IMG/VR virus record: IMGVR_UViG_3300028388_001910
Coordinates: 1 to 20,707 of that record
DNA length: 20,707 nucleotides
Source: a virus
Strand: one strand, 5' to 3'
In this document: piece after piece, positions 3,871-9,776 of the stretch
How the letters are laid out: every line of letters starts with the position of its first letter
How positions within the stretch are numbered: the stretch's first letter is position 1
Notes under the pieces: generated by a model
Seen by the model: the letters and a program-made list of their open reading frames with translations, nothing else
Told to the model about the DNA's origin: nothing
Databases searched by the model: none
Translations under genes and position numbers: made by a program

Positions 3871-4213
3871 TCGATTTCCTTATCAATAATAGCGTCAATG
3901 CAAAAACTACTATCTCCCAATAGTCATAAATTATGTTAGTGCTTAGAATGTAATCAATCTCAAGAAGTAAGGCGGATACAAGCAATGTAAAAATAATACT
4001 AGCTTCGTATATTCTACCACTTCTAGTCAGCCAAAACGCTGCAATATACGCGACACAAATGGGCACTAAGGCGTCAAACTGAAATATCCAGTTCAAAGAC
4101 TGAACAGAATAGCAAAGCACCAAGGGAATATCTAACCTGTACAATGAAATAGTAAACACGATTAGATAAGCTATTAGCGGTAGATTGTACGTTAGATAAG
4201 ATTCAATTATCAT
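3809..4213 (-). CDS. Multi-span membrane protein, unknown
   Basis: A 134-residue very hydrophobic protein with four or five likely membrane spans (about 10-27, 30-44, 48-65, 71-88 and 99-115) and a basic, His-rich C-terminal tail. No family is recognised. It overlaps the small gene upstream by 11 bases, and no strong ribosome site is seen, so translation may depend on coupling. Its place just before the holin and lysozyme suggests a lysis or membrane-related role, for instance an accessory holin, but this rests on position only. Confidence 0.55.
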   Translation of the reverse strand: MIIESYLTYNLPLIAYLIVFTISLYRLDIPLVLCYSVQSLNWIFQFDALVPICVAYIAAFWLTRSGRIYEASIIFTLLVSALLLEIDYILSTNIIYDYWEIVVFALTLLLIRKSNGIRDIHHGYHANPFAVQYR

Positions 4214-4349
4214 CGCGCTTTTTTTTCGGACCGCCGACCATCGGCCTTAATAATTTCTCTTTAGCGCCACTTAAAACATCATGCTTTTTCAGCCAATGTC
4301 CGAAAACTACACCGCCAGCAAAAAAGAACCAAATTTCTACTATTTCCAT
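4203..4349 (-). CDS. Small single-span membrane protein, 48 aa
   Basis: A short ORF with ATG at 4349 and an excellent ribosome site (AAAGGTGA about 8 bases upstream). The product starts MEIVEIWFFFAGGVVFGHWL, a likely membrane segment of about 17 residues, then becomes strongly basic (PMVGGPKKKRDDN). It fills the gap between the lipoprotein-like gene and the multi-span protein gene and overlaps the latter by 11 bases. No family is recognised; the layout resembles other small phage membrane proteins of lysis regions. Confidence 0.6.
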   Translation of the reverse strand: MEIVEIWFFFAGGVVFGHWLKKHDVLSGAKEKLLRPMVGGPKKKRDDN

Positions 4350-4353
4350 ATAA

Positions 4354-4638
4354 TCACCTTTGTATAATCCAATATTCTAGTTCGATTCCAACACCATCAT
4401 AGACATTTTGATCAGTAGACCAAGCGCATGAATGATGCGTGTATTTAGCCGATACGGTTAATCTATCATCCTGGTAAATCATACCTCGAAAGCCTAGGTT
4501 GCTGGTGGCTCTGTCATCCAAGCCACCCAACATACATTGAGGACTGACTTTCTCTGTGTAATCAATACCTGCGAAAACAGAACAACCCGCTAGAAATGAA
4601 ATCAACCCTACAATCAAAAACACAAAAAGCGCTTTCAC
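4354..4638 (-). CDS. Alternative internal-start lipoprotein
   Basis: A nested, in-frame product starting at the GTG at 4638, with AGGCGGGG just upstream (a few bases before the start). It would be 94 residues: a signal peptide with one Lys, a hydrophobic core and LAGC, with Cys19 as the lipidated residue, then the exported domain. This gives a complete, conventional phage lipoprotein. Whether cells use this start, the longer one, or both cannot be told from sequence. Confidence 0.45.
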   Translation of the reverse strand: MKALFVFLIVGLISFLAGCSVFAGIDYTEKVSPQCMLGGLDDRATSNLGFRGMIYQDDRLTVSAKYTHHSCAWSTDQNVYDGVGIELEYWIIQR

Positions 4639-4758
4639 GACCCCGCCTTTAATGTCGTCGGTTAGCGGCGCAACGCTCGGTCGAAAATACCTAGCTACTC
4701 TATATGAGATATAAGCCAAGAGCACAACCCCAACGATAAATTTAAGATAGGAATCCAT
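4354..4758 (-). CDS. Membrane protein with internal lipobox, phage OM-type domain
   Basis: A 134-residue protein from the ATG at 4758, which has GAGG about 9 bases upstream; an ATG at 4788 would only add MNNSTQRRCS. It has a first span (about 5-20), a short polar linker, a second hydrophobic stretch (VKALFVFLIVGLISFLAGC, residues 41-59) ending in a textbook lipobox LAGC, and a C-terminal domain of about 75 residues with KYTHHSCAW and YDGVGIELEYW. Similar C-terminal domains occur in phage proteins predicted to be exported. The lipobox would normally follow an N-terminal signal peptide, so either this is a fusion or translation also starts inside, at the GTG at 4638. It overlaps the upstream gene by 17 bases. 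Function is unknown. Confidence 0.6.
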   Translation of the reverse strand: MDSYLKFIVGVVLLAYISYRVARYFRPSVAPLTDDIKGGVVKALFVFLIVGLISFLAGCSVFAGIDYTEKVSPQCMLGGLDDRATSNLGFRGMIYQDDRLTVSAKYTHHSCAWSTDQNVYDGVGIELEYWIIQR

Positions 4759-5287
4759 TGAACACCGCCTCTGTGTCGAATTGTTCACATTCTTCTATAG
4801 TGGATAATAACATTATTGCACCTTGAACGGTTTGACCATAAGCATTGAATCCTTTTTGCCAATGGTCATGCATTTGTCGATTCAGTTCGTCGTAATCTTC
4901 TTTTGTGACCAACTCTATACCGCTAGTATCTGAATTCAAAAACCACGTTGAGTGCGCGTAATTCTCTTTTTCGGCTTTACGGTCTAGCACGTCTAAGGCG
5001 TTCGCGTCTTTTTCTCTGCATTTAACATTGTACGCTTGGCCGTTTGAATGCGTGTATAGAATACCTGCAATTTCGTAGCTTTGTTTTAATGCCTTAGCTT
5101 CTTCAATTAAAACCTTCTGCCACTCATCAACGGTTCGCCACGGCTCAATATCAAAAACATCACCCTCTTCAATCCAGCCGTTACGGGTTAGGCTTGGTAT
5201 AGTGCCAACTGTCCCGCGACCGTCGCTGGTTTGAATGTGTATTTTTGTGTTTTCAGGGTTAAACCATTTCGCACTTTTTATACTCAT
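4742..5287 (-). CDS. Tail-associated protein, DUF4376-like
   Basis: A 181-residue soluble protein following the tail fibre gene. The N-terminal half has short strand-rich sequence (SIKSAKWFNPENTKIHIQ). The C-terminal part (about residues 75-165) has GILYTHSNGQAYNV, a STWFLNSD segment, and LVTKEDYDELNRQM followed by a long helix; this order resembles the DUF4376 domain seen at the ends of phage tail proteins. A role in fibre assembly or as a tail appendage is inferred from position. The start overlaps the stop of a 10-codon ORF (ATGA), which carries the strong ribosome site; no good site lies directly before this ATG. Confidence 0.6.
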   Translation of the reverse strand: MSIKSAKWFNPENTKIHIQTSDGRGTVGTIPSLTRNGWIEEGDVFDIEPWRTVDEWQKVLIEEAKALKQSYEIAGILYTHSNGQAYNVKCREKDANALDVLDRKAEKENYAHSTWFLNSDTSGIELVTKEDYDELNRQMHDHWQKGFNAYGQTVQGAIMLLSTIEECEQFDTEAVFNGFLS

Positions 5288-5316
5288 GCGTTTAATTTAT
5301 CTCTTGATTTAGTCAT
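5284..5316 (-). CDS. Ten-residue leader ORF coupled to the next gene
   Basis: AAGGAG (5330-5325) lies 8 bases before an ATG at 5316 that opens a 10-residue ORF, MTKSRDKLNA. Its TGA overlaps the ATG of the next gene. The strong ribosome site therefore serves the mini-ORF, and the gene at 4742-5287 may be translated by re-initiation. Confidence 0.5.
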   Translation of the reverse strand: MTKSRDKLNA

Positions 5317-5331
5317 AGATGAATCTCCTTG

Positions 5332-6237
5332 TTAATACCAACGGCCTGTAGCTGTGTAGGTTGCATTACTAGACCCACCATAGGTAGTTGCAGCGTCTGG
5401 TGATGCATACCATGTAGAATTGATTCCAGAGTTATCAAAACTTAAAGTTGTTATGTAAGCACTTCTGCCAGAGATCTGAGATTCTTGAGTTGTCCCTGAT
5501 ACGCTTATGCAAGTTGAAAATGGCTTAGGGAATGTTAGTGAACCTGCATTAACATAGGCATGAGTTGTTGCGTTTGTCCACCCTGACGCGGGCATTGAAT
5601 TTAGTTGCCCCGAACACTCTTGAAAACCACTTGCCCTTCTAAGCCAATCCTCGCCAGACAAATCACTAATCAAAAGAAAGTCAGTACCGTCATAACGCCA
5701 GTTAAGATTCTGCTTATTGTAAGTATCATCTAGGTCGCCAACATCGAATGATGAACCGTCTATGTATTTTAGGTTGATAACCGTTCCGTTATAGTTTAAA
5801 TCAGGTGAGGTGGTGGTGTTTGCTGTAGCTGGTAGCGGGAAGCTTATCACCATGCCAGCTTGCAAGGCTCTGAATTCTCCCGACAATGGAGTAAATGTGT
5901 AGGTGTCTGAGCTATAAGCTATAGCCCCATTCTGTATAGTATCGCCAAAATCTTCTGCGACCGAATCTAAGCTCACAATCTCAACATTACGCCAAGTTTG
6001 CGAACCCGCGCCGCCGCTCGCGGTCACTCTGTATCTGCCCGGCTCAGCGTAAAAGAAAAAGAATCCATTTGAATCAGCAAAAAACGGATTGCTTAATTGA
6101 GCGCCTCCGCTTCTAGCACCCCAAATTCCATCAGTTGGTGTAACGCCTGTAGCCTCGTCAATTACATCTATCTGAGCGCTGGGCTGTATGTCGCCATTGT
6201 CGCTTACCACTGTGCTCTGAAATATTGCTCTGCTCAT
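5332..6237 (-). CDS. Tail fibre protein
   Basis: A 301-residue protein next to the tail-tip gene, overlapping it by 4 bases (ATGA). Residues 1-95 form a strand-rich domain with GAQLSNPFFADSNGFFFFYA, then GRYRVTASGG and a TWRNVEI strand, an arrangement common at the N-terminus of siphophage tail fibres. The C-terminal region (about 200-301) has a Gly/Ser/Thr-rich strand pattern and ends ATGRWY, similar to the knob of other phage fibres. It probably binds the tail tip through its N-terminus and the host surface through its C-terminus. No enzyme motif is seen. Confidence 0.75.
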   Translation of the reverse strand: MSRAIFQSTVVSDNGDIQPSAQIDVIDEATGVTPTDGIWGARSGGAQLSNPFFADSNGFFFFYAEPGRYRVTASGGAGSQTWRNVEIVSLDSVAEDFGDTIQNGAIAYSSDTYTFTPLSGEFRALQAGMVISFPLPATANTTTSPDLNYNGTVINLKYIDGSSFDVGDLDDTYNKQNLNWRYDGTDFLLISDLSGEDWLRRASGFQECSGQLNSMPASGWTNATTHAYVNAGSLTFPKPFSTCISVSGTTQESQISGRSAYITTLSFDNSGINSTWYASPDAATTYGGSSNATYTATGRWY

Positions 6238-9200
6238 AATATCGCTCCGATTATAGTTCCATTATTTGTTAGGCTTATTGTGCCTGAAGTCTCAACTATG
6301 GCCCGGCCGTTATCACCCCTAGATGCTCCGCTCTGCTCAAATATTGAGGTTGATTCACCGCCAGAACCGCTCTGACCAATAGATGATAAGCTCGCACCAT
6401 CACCACCATCACCACCCATTGCACTAACCACAGTTGGGAAAGCTGGCTCTCCGGGAGGTTGCGGCACAACGTAAGTTATGATGGCAGTAGCACCGCTACC
6501 ACCCGCACCCCTGCTAGAAAAGCTTGAACCTCCGCCGGGCTGACTGGTTGCGGATTCGGTTGAATAATATCCACCAGATGGGAAATTGTAGCTAATCGAC
6601 GCACCGCCGATTCCAGGAAGGCTACCAGTACCTGCGCCGCCGCCAGCTCCGTTTGCGATAGAAAGATATACAATATTGTTATAGCGCGAAAAAGCAAAAG
6701 CACCGCCGCCACCGCCGCCACCGCCGCCGCCTCGATATATATTACCGTTATTTATAAAATTAACATCGTAATCAATAAGGAGCGCATCGCCACCATCCCA
6801 ACCATCTTGCGGCAGCACTTGAGTGTAGACAGGGAAACCAGATGTTTGGCCAATGGAATCCACTGTAAAAGCTCCGCCATTTCCGCCTCTTCCAGCCCTG
6901 CCCGAAATAGTACCGTTGTTGGTTATATTAACAATTGCGCCAGAGGGGAAGCCTCCTATTCTTAGGCCGTAGGAATTAGATGAGCCTCCGACAACAACGC
7001 CGCTATTAATAGTTACGTTTACAGTAGTATCGCTAGTTACGGTTTTAATTTGACTAGCTAAATCATAAATATTCACACTGACTGAATTAGTGTCAATAAC
7101 CAAATCAATTACATCGGGGTCAACATCAGGAATCAACTCTGAATATCTAACCTCTTCCGCAACTACATCTATATAATCAATGTTCGGTTTAACCCTTACA
7201 ATCTGAGCATCAATTGAATCCAGCTCCCCGTTGGGCTTCTGAATGGGCCAGCTTTCAACCTTATACCCACTGACTAATTGGGGTATTTGTAGCTGATCAT
7301 TTCTAAACAACCTAAAACCTAGGCGTCTAGGCGGGTCTACAAATCTCTGCAATATTAAGTTATTCAAATTTGAGGCTACAGATTGAGCTTGCGCGGGTAT
7401 CCATCGGCTAAATATTTGCTTAACCATTGGGCTACCATAAAACTCTTCCGAATCAGTATTGGTTGTCGCCAATATGTTTGAGTAATTTTGAACTTCATCT
7501 AGTTTTAGCGTTGGGTTTAATTGCCCGTAATACGTCCAAACCTGAGATACCCTAGATTGCGGCTGGTCCTTAATATTCAGCGAGTCCTGCTCAATAATGT
7601 CGTCATCAAACAATACAGCATCTGTTGGAACTCTTTTTAAAACGCTAACATTAATTAGTTGCGACTCATCCGACCAATACATTGTCGTTGCTGTCTGTGT
7701 TAATAATTCATTTAACAGCTCTTTTACTGGCGTAGGCTCGGGGATGATCGCGCTATAAAGATTATTAATATATGTATCTGACTCAACCGTCCAAGCCGAC
7801 AAAGGAATGTACTCACTAGGAACGTCTGCATAATTTGACAGCAAGTCGCTCCAAATATCGGCGGGGTTTTCCCCATCATACTCAAGCACAAGCTGTACTT
7901 TGGCATCTGCCTTGTGCTCTTCGGCGGGCGTATTATCTTGCGCTCTAACAATGGTCATATTGTCGCCACTTCTCGTGAAGTTGGCTATCTCAGTGCCACC
8001 TATACAAACCTTTCCGCTTGATGGGTATTCGCTGCCAACGCTAGCAGGTAGCAAGGCAATAGACGTTGTGCTATTGCCTATGTCCGATTGTAGGTAGCCA
8101 TTTGATACCTTTGGAGCCAATGCTCTATCGCCGTCGGCAAGCTTTAGTATATCCTTGGCTACTATTTTAAAATTGCCTGCGTTATCTGGACCGGCAAAAT
8201 CTTCTATTACATAGTGCCTAGTTTCCATTGCGTCCATCGAGTCACTTATATTACCCTTAATCCATCGCAAAGGTTGGTTTTTCAGGTATGGAAATCTAGA
8301 TCTAAATTTACCCCAGTAGCTGCCCGTATCATAAGGGTTGTAAGCTCGACTTTCTGGATACCTATCGCCGCCGACCTCATTATCTGGGCTTCTATGATCC
8401 TTAAACGCTACACTAAGACTTGCACGAACACCTAACCCTTTGCCCAACTCCAATGCCGCTGGGTCAAACTGAATACCTTGAATGCTAGGTATAGCGTCAA
8501 TAGATAGAGGAAGCCTTGAGGTTGGTACGGCATAGCGAACAGTGCTAGGCTCATAAACAGCAGGCCACCAACTGTCATAAGTTGCCTTGAGCTCTGGGCT
8601 GTAGATTTTTATGTAGTCTATCTCACCATGTGCGTTTGAGTCGTTACCAAACATATCTAAGCGGATATGCGTTATAGCGCTGTCGCTCCAACCTGTAGTA
8701 TTGCTCATATCTATAAACGCTGTGTAGAATCCGCTGCCATCTGGGCCTACGAGAGTACTCCGTAGCTCTACGTCAGCAGAATATCCAATCCCAAATGCTA
8801 CTATGTCATTACTGCTATATCCTCCTCCGCCAATATTTCTAAACAACAACAAGCTACTGCCACCAGAAAACTGTTTAAATCTAATTTCAACCATATTAAA
8901 TAAGCTGCCGTCAAACTCTGCAAAACCATTGGACGGGCCTCTGCTCATGCTTGGATCAGCGTTAATTGCGCCTATCGATAAAATTCCGTTAGATATACTC
9001 TCGCTAATATTATTAAAACCCCACTCGCTCAACTCGTCCGTGCTCGCCCATTCGTTATAAAGCGCGTAAGGGTATGGATTTGGGTTTTTTCCTGCAAATA
9101 CCGCCTGAACGTAAACATTAGAGCCAATATCTGGTATTTTAGTTGTTGAGTCGTTTTCTTCGAAGAACGAATTTCGCAAGCCAACATCTTGATCATAACT

Positions 9201-9776
9201 AGACTCTCGTACAGACTGAATCAATACATAGCCATCAGATAGAGCCATATAATTTATATATTCATCACTCCCAGAAAAAACCTCTTTCCCATCTGAAACT
9301 CGAACTCTATACTGACCGTTATCGGTAACACTAAAATCAAAGAAATACTCAACGACGGCGAGACTGTTCGCATTTTTTGCTATTAAAGAAGAGTATATTT
9401 GTTCCCCTCTGTTTACTGAAAAAGAAGAGCTTGAAGAAAATGTGTTAAAACTAGTACCTACCTGCTCCAGAAGACCAACAACCTCCGAGCCACTTGGATT
9501 AGGAGTATTAATATTGGCAATCGTTCCATCTGGATCAGACGTAGCACCAAACCACCCACTCGGATCGAACGGGCTTGGCATGTAGTTGGTCACATTAGGG
9601 TAAGAAACTTTACCTTTTTCACTACCTTTATAATTAGCCAAATCTTGACACGTTGCTCGGCAGTTAAAGCATTTCTCATCACCCGTCACGCCAACTTCGG
9701 CGGTGCAAGGTGCTACGCCGTACTCATTTACGCATAGGTTTAAATCTATTTCGATGTATTCTATTTTCTCACTCAT
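6234..9776 (-). CDS. Central tail-tip / host-recognition protein
   Basis: A 1180-residue protein, by far the largest here. The N-terminus has a Cys motif (GVAPCTA at 20-26, KCFNCRATCQD at 35-45) typical of a siphophage tail-hub family. In other members the hub domain follows soon after; here it resumes only at about 412 (AVPTSRLPLSIDAIPSI) with LGVRASLSVAFKDH (448-461) and SYWGKFRSRFPY (486-497). The 330 residues between look like inserted strand-rich domains, the second (about 240-395) ending GEIDYIKIYSPE like a jelly-roll carbohydrate-binding domain. From about 926 the chain is glycine-rich, with 10 Gly in a row at 1016-1025 and three NNGxI motifs, as in polyglycine-sandwich adhesins. It likely closes the tail and binds the receptor. 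It overlaps both neighbours by 4 bases. Confidence 0.85.
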   Translation of the reverse strand: MSEKIEYIEIDLNLCVNEYGVAPCTAEVGVTGDEKCFNCRATCQDLANYKGSEKGKVSYPNVTNYMPSPFDPSGWFGATSDPDGTIANINTPNPSGSEVVGLLEQVGTSFNTFSSSSSFSVNRGEQIYSSLIAKNANSLAVVEYFFDFSVTDNGQYRVRVSDGKEVFSGSDEYINYMALSDGYVLIQSVRESSYDQDVGLRNSFFEENDSTTKIPDIGSNVYVQAVFAGKNPNPYPYALYNEWASTDELSEWGFNNISESISNGILSIGAINADPSMSRGPSNGFAEFDGSLFNMVEIRFKQFSGGSSLLLFRNIGGGGYSSNDIVAFGIGYSADVELRSTLVGPDGSGFYTAFIDMSNTTGWSDSAITHIRLDMFGNDSNAHGEIDYIKIYSPELKATYDSWWPAVYEPSTVRYAVPTSRLPLSIDAIPSIQGIQFDPAALELGKGLGVRASLSVAFKDHRSPDNEVGGDRYPESRAYNPYDTGSYWGKFRSRFPYLKNQPLRWIKGNISDSMDAMETRHYVIEDFAGPDNAGNFKIVAKDILKLADGDRALAPKVSNGYLQSDIGNSTTSIALLPASVGSEYPSSGKVCIGGTEIANFTRSGDNMTIVRAQDNTPAEEHKADAKVQLVLEYDGENPADIWSDLLSNYADVPSEYIPLSAWTVESDTYINNLYSAIIPEPTPVKELLNELLTQTATTMYWSDESQLINVSVLKRVPTDAVLFDDDIIEQDSLNIKDQPQSRVSQVWTYYGQLNPTLKLDEVQNYSNILATTNTDSEEFYGSPMVKQIFSRWIPAQAQSVASNLNNLILQRFVDPPRRLGFRLFRNDQLQIPQLVSGYKVESWPIQKPNGELDSIDAQIVRVKPNIDYIDVVAEEVRYSELIPDVDPDVIDLVIDTNSVSVNIYDLASQIKTVTSDTTVNVTINSGVVVGGSSNSYGLRIGGFPSGAIVNITNNGTISGRAGRGGNGGAFTVDSIGQTSGFPVYTQVLPQDGWDGGDALLIDYDVNFINNGNIYRGGGGGGGGGGAFAFSRYNNIVYLSIANGAGGGAGTGSLPGIGGASISYNFPSGGYYSTESATSQPGGGSSFSSRGAGGSGATAIITYVVPQPPGEPAFPTVVSAMGGDGGDGASLSSIGQSGSGGESTSIFEQSGASRGDNGRAIVETSGTISLTNNGTIIGAIL

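Follow-up and report, generated by a model that had tools for sequence, protein, structure and literature searches.

Tail-tip proteins with inserts of sugar-binding type are already known from evolved Dit and from the hub and the Megatron of roseophage vB_DshS-R4C (R4C), and most of the evidence found for such inserts comes from phages of Gram-positive dairy bacteria. In siphophages of Gram-positive hosts, evolved Dit and Tal carry CBM domains within conserved tip proteins, in some members only (PMC10688798, PMC6669499, PMC7291167), and experiments with recombinant phages established that lactococcal phages adsorb better to exopolysaccharide-bearing hosts when carbohydrate-binding domains are inserted in their Dit (PMC10688798). 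Excerpts of the structural report on R4C (PMC10276861) describe an oligosaccharide-binding domain in the hub (residues 162-243), lying between the halves of a four-Cys Fe-S ion-binding domain, and a further domain in the Megatron (482-629), extra relative to RcGTA, which the authors named carbohydrate-binding; in these excerpts the name derives from a CtCBM11-like topology and not from an assay. The Fe-S site itself has a precedent in phage lambda, where gpL Cys173/182 and Cys205/212 hold a 4Fe-4S cluster (PMC10721106). Alishewanella phage LSH1 has a minimal single-chain hub with polyglycine-rich brush domains, and the brush is also found on the hubs of Pseudoalteromonas phages (PMC13243795).

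Here a single hub loop, in a phage family of marine Gammaproteobacteria and other hosts, appears to have repeatedly taken up unrelated lectin-like domains. The window, the stretch of DNA that was analysed, corresponds to an entire virus record (20,707 bases), with genes for terminase, portal, protease, head, connector, tape measure and tail on the minus strand. Its hub gene, P0001, contains about 355 residues of extra sequence, the second half of which is most likely a member of the R4C Megatron domain family.

The hub protein and its insert

P0001 encodes 1180 residues in a reading frame that is open throughout, and the gene order around it is tape measure, 261-residue protein, hub and fibre. 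Residues 410-1179 match positions 55-774 of the 775-position profile of tail family phrog_11439 (E 9.5e-133, 445 bits); as the match enters the profile at position 55, about 55 residues are normal in the family ahead of P0001 residue 410. Isolated phages, of which those of Idiomarinaceae, Alteromonas, Pseudoalteromonas, Marinomonas, Oceanospirillum, Microcystis and Pseudanabaena were compared, align to P0001 mostly from residue ~403-442 onward only. An AlphaFold2 model of the protein, based on 62 family members, has pLDDT near or above 90 for residues 1-50 and 411-885 and passes from a strand at 4-14 to one at 409-416 across the insert, which would thus sit in the first hairpin of the hub. With this hub model the top Foldseek match was the T5 tail tip pb3 (7zhj_b, E 4.9e-12, prob 1.00), and Mu gp44 (1wru, E 1.4e-5) and the hubs of DT57C, Chi, lambda and VgrG were also matched. 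By sequence and predicted structure, then, P0001 is a single-chain tail-tip hub with a glycine-rich end, as a first-pass annotation of this DNA had proposed when it placed a tail-tip protein and a glycine-rich C-terminus in the same chain; the end of P0001 aligns to the glycine-rich end of the family. The features are collected in Table 1.

Table 1. Positions of the hub gene P0001 and its parts in the window
Feature	Position	Strand	Basis
Whole protein P0001, predicted single-chain tail-tip hub with C-terminal glycine-rich adhesin	6234..9776	-	ORF, phrog_11439, AlphaFold2 and Foldseek, gene order
First hub strand, residues 4-14	9735..9767	-	Predicted strand, pLDDT ~90
Four-Cys module, putative Fe-S or metal site, residues 15-44	9645..9734	-	Conserved spacing in relatives; lambda gpL spacing
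Insert, residues ~52-410, between Cys module and second hub strand	8547..9623	-	Absent from isolated phages and nearest relatives
First half of insert, residues 57-236	9069..9608	-	No relative in phages, Pfam, PHROGs or PDB; AlphaFold2 pLDDT mostly <50
CBM-like domain, residues 241-395, homologous to R4C Megatron carbohydrate-binding domain	8592..9056	-	Profile, hhalign and PDB profile match
Hub core, residues 411-885	7122..8546	-	pLDDT mostly >90; Foldseek hub matches (T5, Chi, lambda, Mu gp44, VgrG)
Glycine-rich C-terminal region, residues 886-1180, putative Gp38-like or brush adhesin	6237..7121	-	Aligned to family C-termini

At the C-terminus of the window protein Pfam returned no match of any kind, GP38 included; among the relatives, GP38 matched L032 (5.8e-10) and L049 (8.8e-5, under the curated cut-off). 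At the other end of the protein, the Cys motif reported in the first-pass annotation is present, but as one C-x8-C...C-x6-C module (C15-x8-C24-x11-C36-x6-C43) with an additional C39. The C-x6-C pair occurs in all 172 motif-bearing relatives and C-x8-C in 158 of them, which have both pairs. In Pseudoalteromonas phage H105/1 the Cys region holds a small beta-rich stretch (residues ~40-130) which looks, by eye, like a later hub domain with an IGDE motif, as if copied from it.

It is clear that the extra sequence in P0001 departs from the usual arrangement. In a ten-protein alignment the hubs of the isolated phages continue from the Cys motif directly to the strand that holds R414; in the group of Pq0, AL and PB15 both the Cys motif and the insert are missing. 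Among 209 deduplicated hub ORFs, the gap that separates the last Cys from the hub profile could be measured in 172 and has a length of 8 residues in 150 of these; only one large gap was found besides that of the window (222 residues, in L239). The proximity of Cys motif and hub that the first-pass annotation described as normal for the family is borne out, and the large insertion placed at 8540-9600 is recovered at 8547-9623. The empty junction from Cys motif to second strand that is usual in phrog_11439 hubs is not the case in P0001 (355 residues against 8); it is usual without being strictly defining, and the insert is a decoration of the family and does not exclude P0001 from it. The insert is real and is absent from close relatives: the nearest by tree (L195, L185, L190, L177 and L189, with up to 50% identity) all have the Cys motif and lack the insert. 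Such pairs of hubs with and without the insert are suited to tests of its role.

It is scarcely credible that the region belongs to the hub proper and has been lost in most relatives or is hidden by alignment. Some relatives do bear inserts, one of them (L239) at exactly the same junction; but the region is missing from every one of the nearest relatives, so that the comparison with insert-free hubs suggested in the first-pass annotation places it outside the ordinary hub, while the inserts of other members belong to unrelated families and the hub is predicted at high confidence without the insert. It is likewise very improbable that the insert arose by chimeric assembly of a metagenomic contig or by an accident of reading frame. 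In favour of such an origin, the window is a 20.7-kb IMG/VR record, and nothing in the collections searched matches the insert closely. Against it stand one intact 1180-codon frame, a GC content of the insert halves (0.40 and 0.44) like that of the flanks (0.41 and 0.44) and a gene order that is typical; other contigs, moreover, have large inserts of independent kind in this loop.

The one other insert found at exactly this junction, in L239 (ORF 4155-6599, residues ~66-280), follows the same CFNC variant of the Cys motif; its domain is unrelated to that of the window and had no Pfam match.

The two halves of the insert

Direct searches with the insert returned nothing from Pfam, PHROGs or PDB, nor from phage records, plasmids or 274 genomes in the class to which the L097 genome belongs; in Pfam, even at E up to 10, the insert had no match, Laminin_G_3 (PF13385) included. 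AlphaFold2 modelled the insert alone at low confidence (pLDDT 31), the relatives being too few, and this model was not used for fold search.

The second half, residues 241-395, which is the part ending GEIDYIKIY, could be traced further. When it was searched against 295 genomes from the same class as G008, which is that of a Saprospirales bacterium (L102), one match emerged, L281 (E 1e-4), a multi-domain protein whose C-terminus resembles, by eye, a type IX secretion tail. From the relatives of L281 a profile of nine Bacteroidota-class domains was built with the window left out; it scores residues 241-395 at 37.2 bits, against 8.1 for the best of 5000 shuffles, at 36.4 bits when the seed is removed, and at 26.2 bits when only three domains from two other genomes are used. 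hhalign of the same residues against the A7 profile gave 96% (E 3.5e-9, 139 columns). Residues 241-395 are thus, as judged by profile, homologous to a domain of Bacteroidota proteins. When the profile that includes the window (A6) was searched against PDB, it found residues 488-626 of 8gtc chain M, the R4C Megatron (E 1.6e-5), and this stretch was still the best match of the profile without the window (A7; E 0.0024); with a profile containing two more divergent rows (A5), 8gtc chain M was not listed. The stretch is the only solved relative found for this domain family. Residues 241-395 are therefore most likely a member of the R4C Megatron carbohydrate-binding domain family, with putative sugar binding. 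In the AlphaFold2 model of P0001 there are strands at 295-392, at low confidence. A scan of viral contigs for relatives of residues 241-395 found none, and when viral contigs were searched with a degenerate DNA pattern for GxIDYIKxY, only chance matches and one LamG-type tail came up; the matches L283 and L284 were rejected as spurious on inspection.

Residues 57-236 appear beta-rich, and searches of phages, Pfam, PHROGs and PDB found no relative of them. The idea that this half is the phage jelly roll seen in the RcGTA head spike fibre (A8) was not supported by a profile test, in which hmmsearch gave no match and hhalign 8%, although the likeness is good by eye. The carbohydrate-binding jelly roll that the first-pass annotation saw here is thus upheld in part, for 241-395 through homology to the R4C domain, and not for 57-236.

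Inserts across the hub family

The family was surveyed by viral and genome scans reduced to the 209 hub ORFs. Inserts of about 200-460 residues were found in the first-hairpin loop of 18 other fetched members, a fraction biased upward since two scans had an insert-bearing sequence as first row, so that their spread over the tree is the safer statement. The distance from second to third Cys is usually about 11-12 residues and exceeds 200 in L027, L028, L029, L032, L048, L068, L084, L118, L121, L152, L181 and L251; in L026, L149, L151 and L188 the same hairpin carries inserts and the Cys module is absent, and L059 also has an insert in the first hairpin. Laminin_G_3 scored above the Pfam cut-off in the first-loop inserts of 12 relatives (L026-L029, L118, L121, L149, L151, L152, L181, L188 and L251), as tandem pairs in L029, L121 and L149, and the insert of L084 is matched by the profile of a phage jelly roll known from several solved tail proteins, the RcGTA head spike fibre among them. 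Five more ORFs (L054, L062, L065, L142 and L219) seemed to have inserts and were dropped, the extra residues being taken as an artefact of translating sequence ahead of the start codon; of these five, L054 and L219 were inspected.

A tree of 184 hub cores, inserts excluded, was built with FastTree. Inserts occur in 18 of its rows, the window and 17 relatives, and at least 16 changes are required to account for them, of which well-supported branches force 10; shuffled labels give a mean of 17.5. The insert label is thus nearly scattered over the tree, although change counts on so fast a tree do not separate gains from losses. These counts point to the first-hairpin loop as a recurrent insertion site. 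In a limited search of the literature, a hub loop was not found described as such a site, while the hypervariability of this hub region, a related point, has been remarked on (PMC13243795).

Two later hub loops also bear inserts, of about 215-250 residues, near position 478 in L072 and L088 and near 602 in L049, L057 and L121; that of L049 is Laminin_G_3 and that of L057 is without a Pfam match. In L006 (Oceanospirillum phage GJ44) the upstream neighbour of the hub, in the place of Dit, carries the annotation discoidin domain-containing and has 546 residues, compared with 261 in the window; by this difference in length the neighbouring tip protein may also carry inserts.

Proposed role and likeness to known systems

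It is probable that the hub loop took up the insert of ~355 residues, with its CBM-like 241-395, as a binder of surface or capsule polysaccharide. P0001 would be a trimeric hub closing the tail of a siphovirus-type phage, in which the loop between the first two hub strands can repeatedly accept whole foreign domains with the hub undisturbed. In the window this loop would have taken up at least one CBM-like beta-sandwich (241-395) and another domain ahead of it. Displayed on the outside of the tip, the insert would bind surface or capsule polysaccharide reversibly, and so would keep the tip close to the envelope; irreversible binding would follow once the glycine-rich adhesin at the C-terminus had found its receptor. 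Reversible polysaccharide binding is the likely work of the insert, and the nearest functional precedent is that of the Dit inserts in lactococcal phages (PMC10688798); we infer the sugar binding, the exposure on the outside of the tip, the trimer and the benefit to adsorption, and homology supports the reading for half of the insert (241-395).

Sandwiches of the CBM-like kind also serve protein contacts. The insert might accordingly bind a target other than sugar, such as a protein receptor or another tail protein, or act as a structural spacer or stabiliser in the manner of some phage Ig-like domains. Residues 57-236, with no family match, would agree with such a role, and excerpts of the R4C report suggest local stability, not adsorption, as the function of an Ig-like domain near the head (PMC10276861). 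This alternative is nevertheless unlikely, as surface binding accounts better than a single structural role for finding so many lectin-like folds of unrelated kinds (Laminin_G_3, phage jelly roll, CBM-like) in the same tip loop. With unrelated lectin-like pieces in many relatives, the first-hairpin loop resembles a socket in which binders of the host surface can be exchanged, and so a place where host-surface preference could be read from metagenomic phage genomes. A broader proposal, advanced tentatively and at somewhat less than even weight, is that the first hub hairpin and the gpL-like Cys module together form a general exchange socket of the single-chain hubs of this phage family, filled many times independently with unrelated binders, and that residues 57-236 represent a new family of binding domains with no described relative.

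Parallels with the described systems are instructive. The evolved Dit and Tal are other proteins, from phages of Gram-positive hosts, whereas the window insert lies in the hub of a different phage family. The Cys module shares the C-x8-C...C-x6-C spacing of the lambda gpL Fe-S domain, its metal site in the window being putative, and it lies in the first hub hairpin, whereas in lambda it is found in the C-terminal domain of a separate protein. LSH1 and the window both have single-chain hubs with glycine-rich ends, a likeness drawn from description only, and Pseudoalteromonas phages whose hubs carry the LSH1-type brush are in the family aligned here; the LSH1 hub has been called minimal, whereas that of the window has the 355-residue insert. 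Members of phrog_11439 (Idiomarinaceae phage 1N2-2, Pseudoalteromonas phages Pq0 and AL, and others) have the same protein from residue 410 on; those named are without the insert, and some also without the Cys module. The sugar-binding-type insert of the R4C hub falls inside its Fe-S module (PMC10276861), as do those of L027, L028, L029 and L118, which lie between C-x8-C and C-x6-C, whereas the window insert comes just after the second Cys pair; the Cys module follows the attachment domain in the R4C hub and lies near the N-terminus of the single chain in the window. The closest likeness in the domain itself is to the R4C Megatron (PDB 8gtc), where the homologous domain, aligned over nearly its full length, is likewise within a tail-tip protein and is absent from the RcGTA relative. 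Its place differs, being a peripheral domain of the Megatron in R4C and the first loop of a single-chain hub, beside the Cys module, in the window, and unlike that of R4C the CBM-like domain of the window is preceded by a second domain (57-236) of no assigned family.
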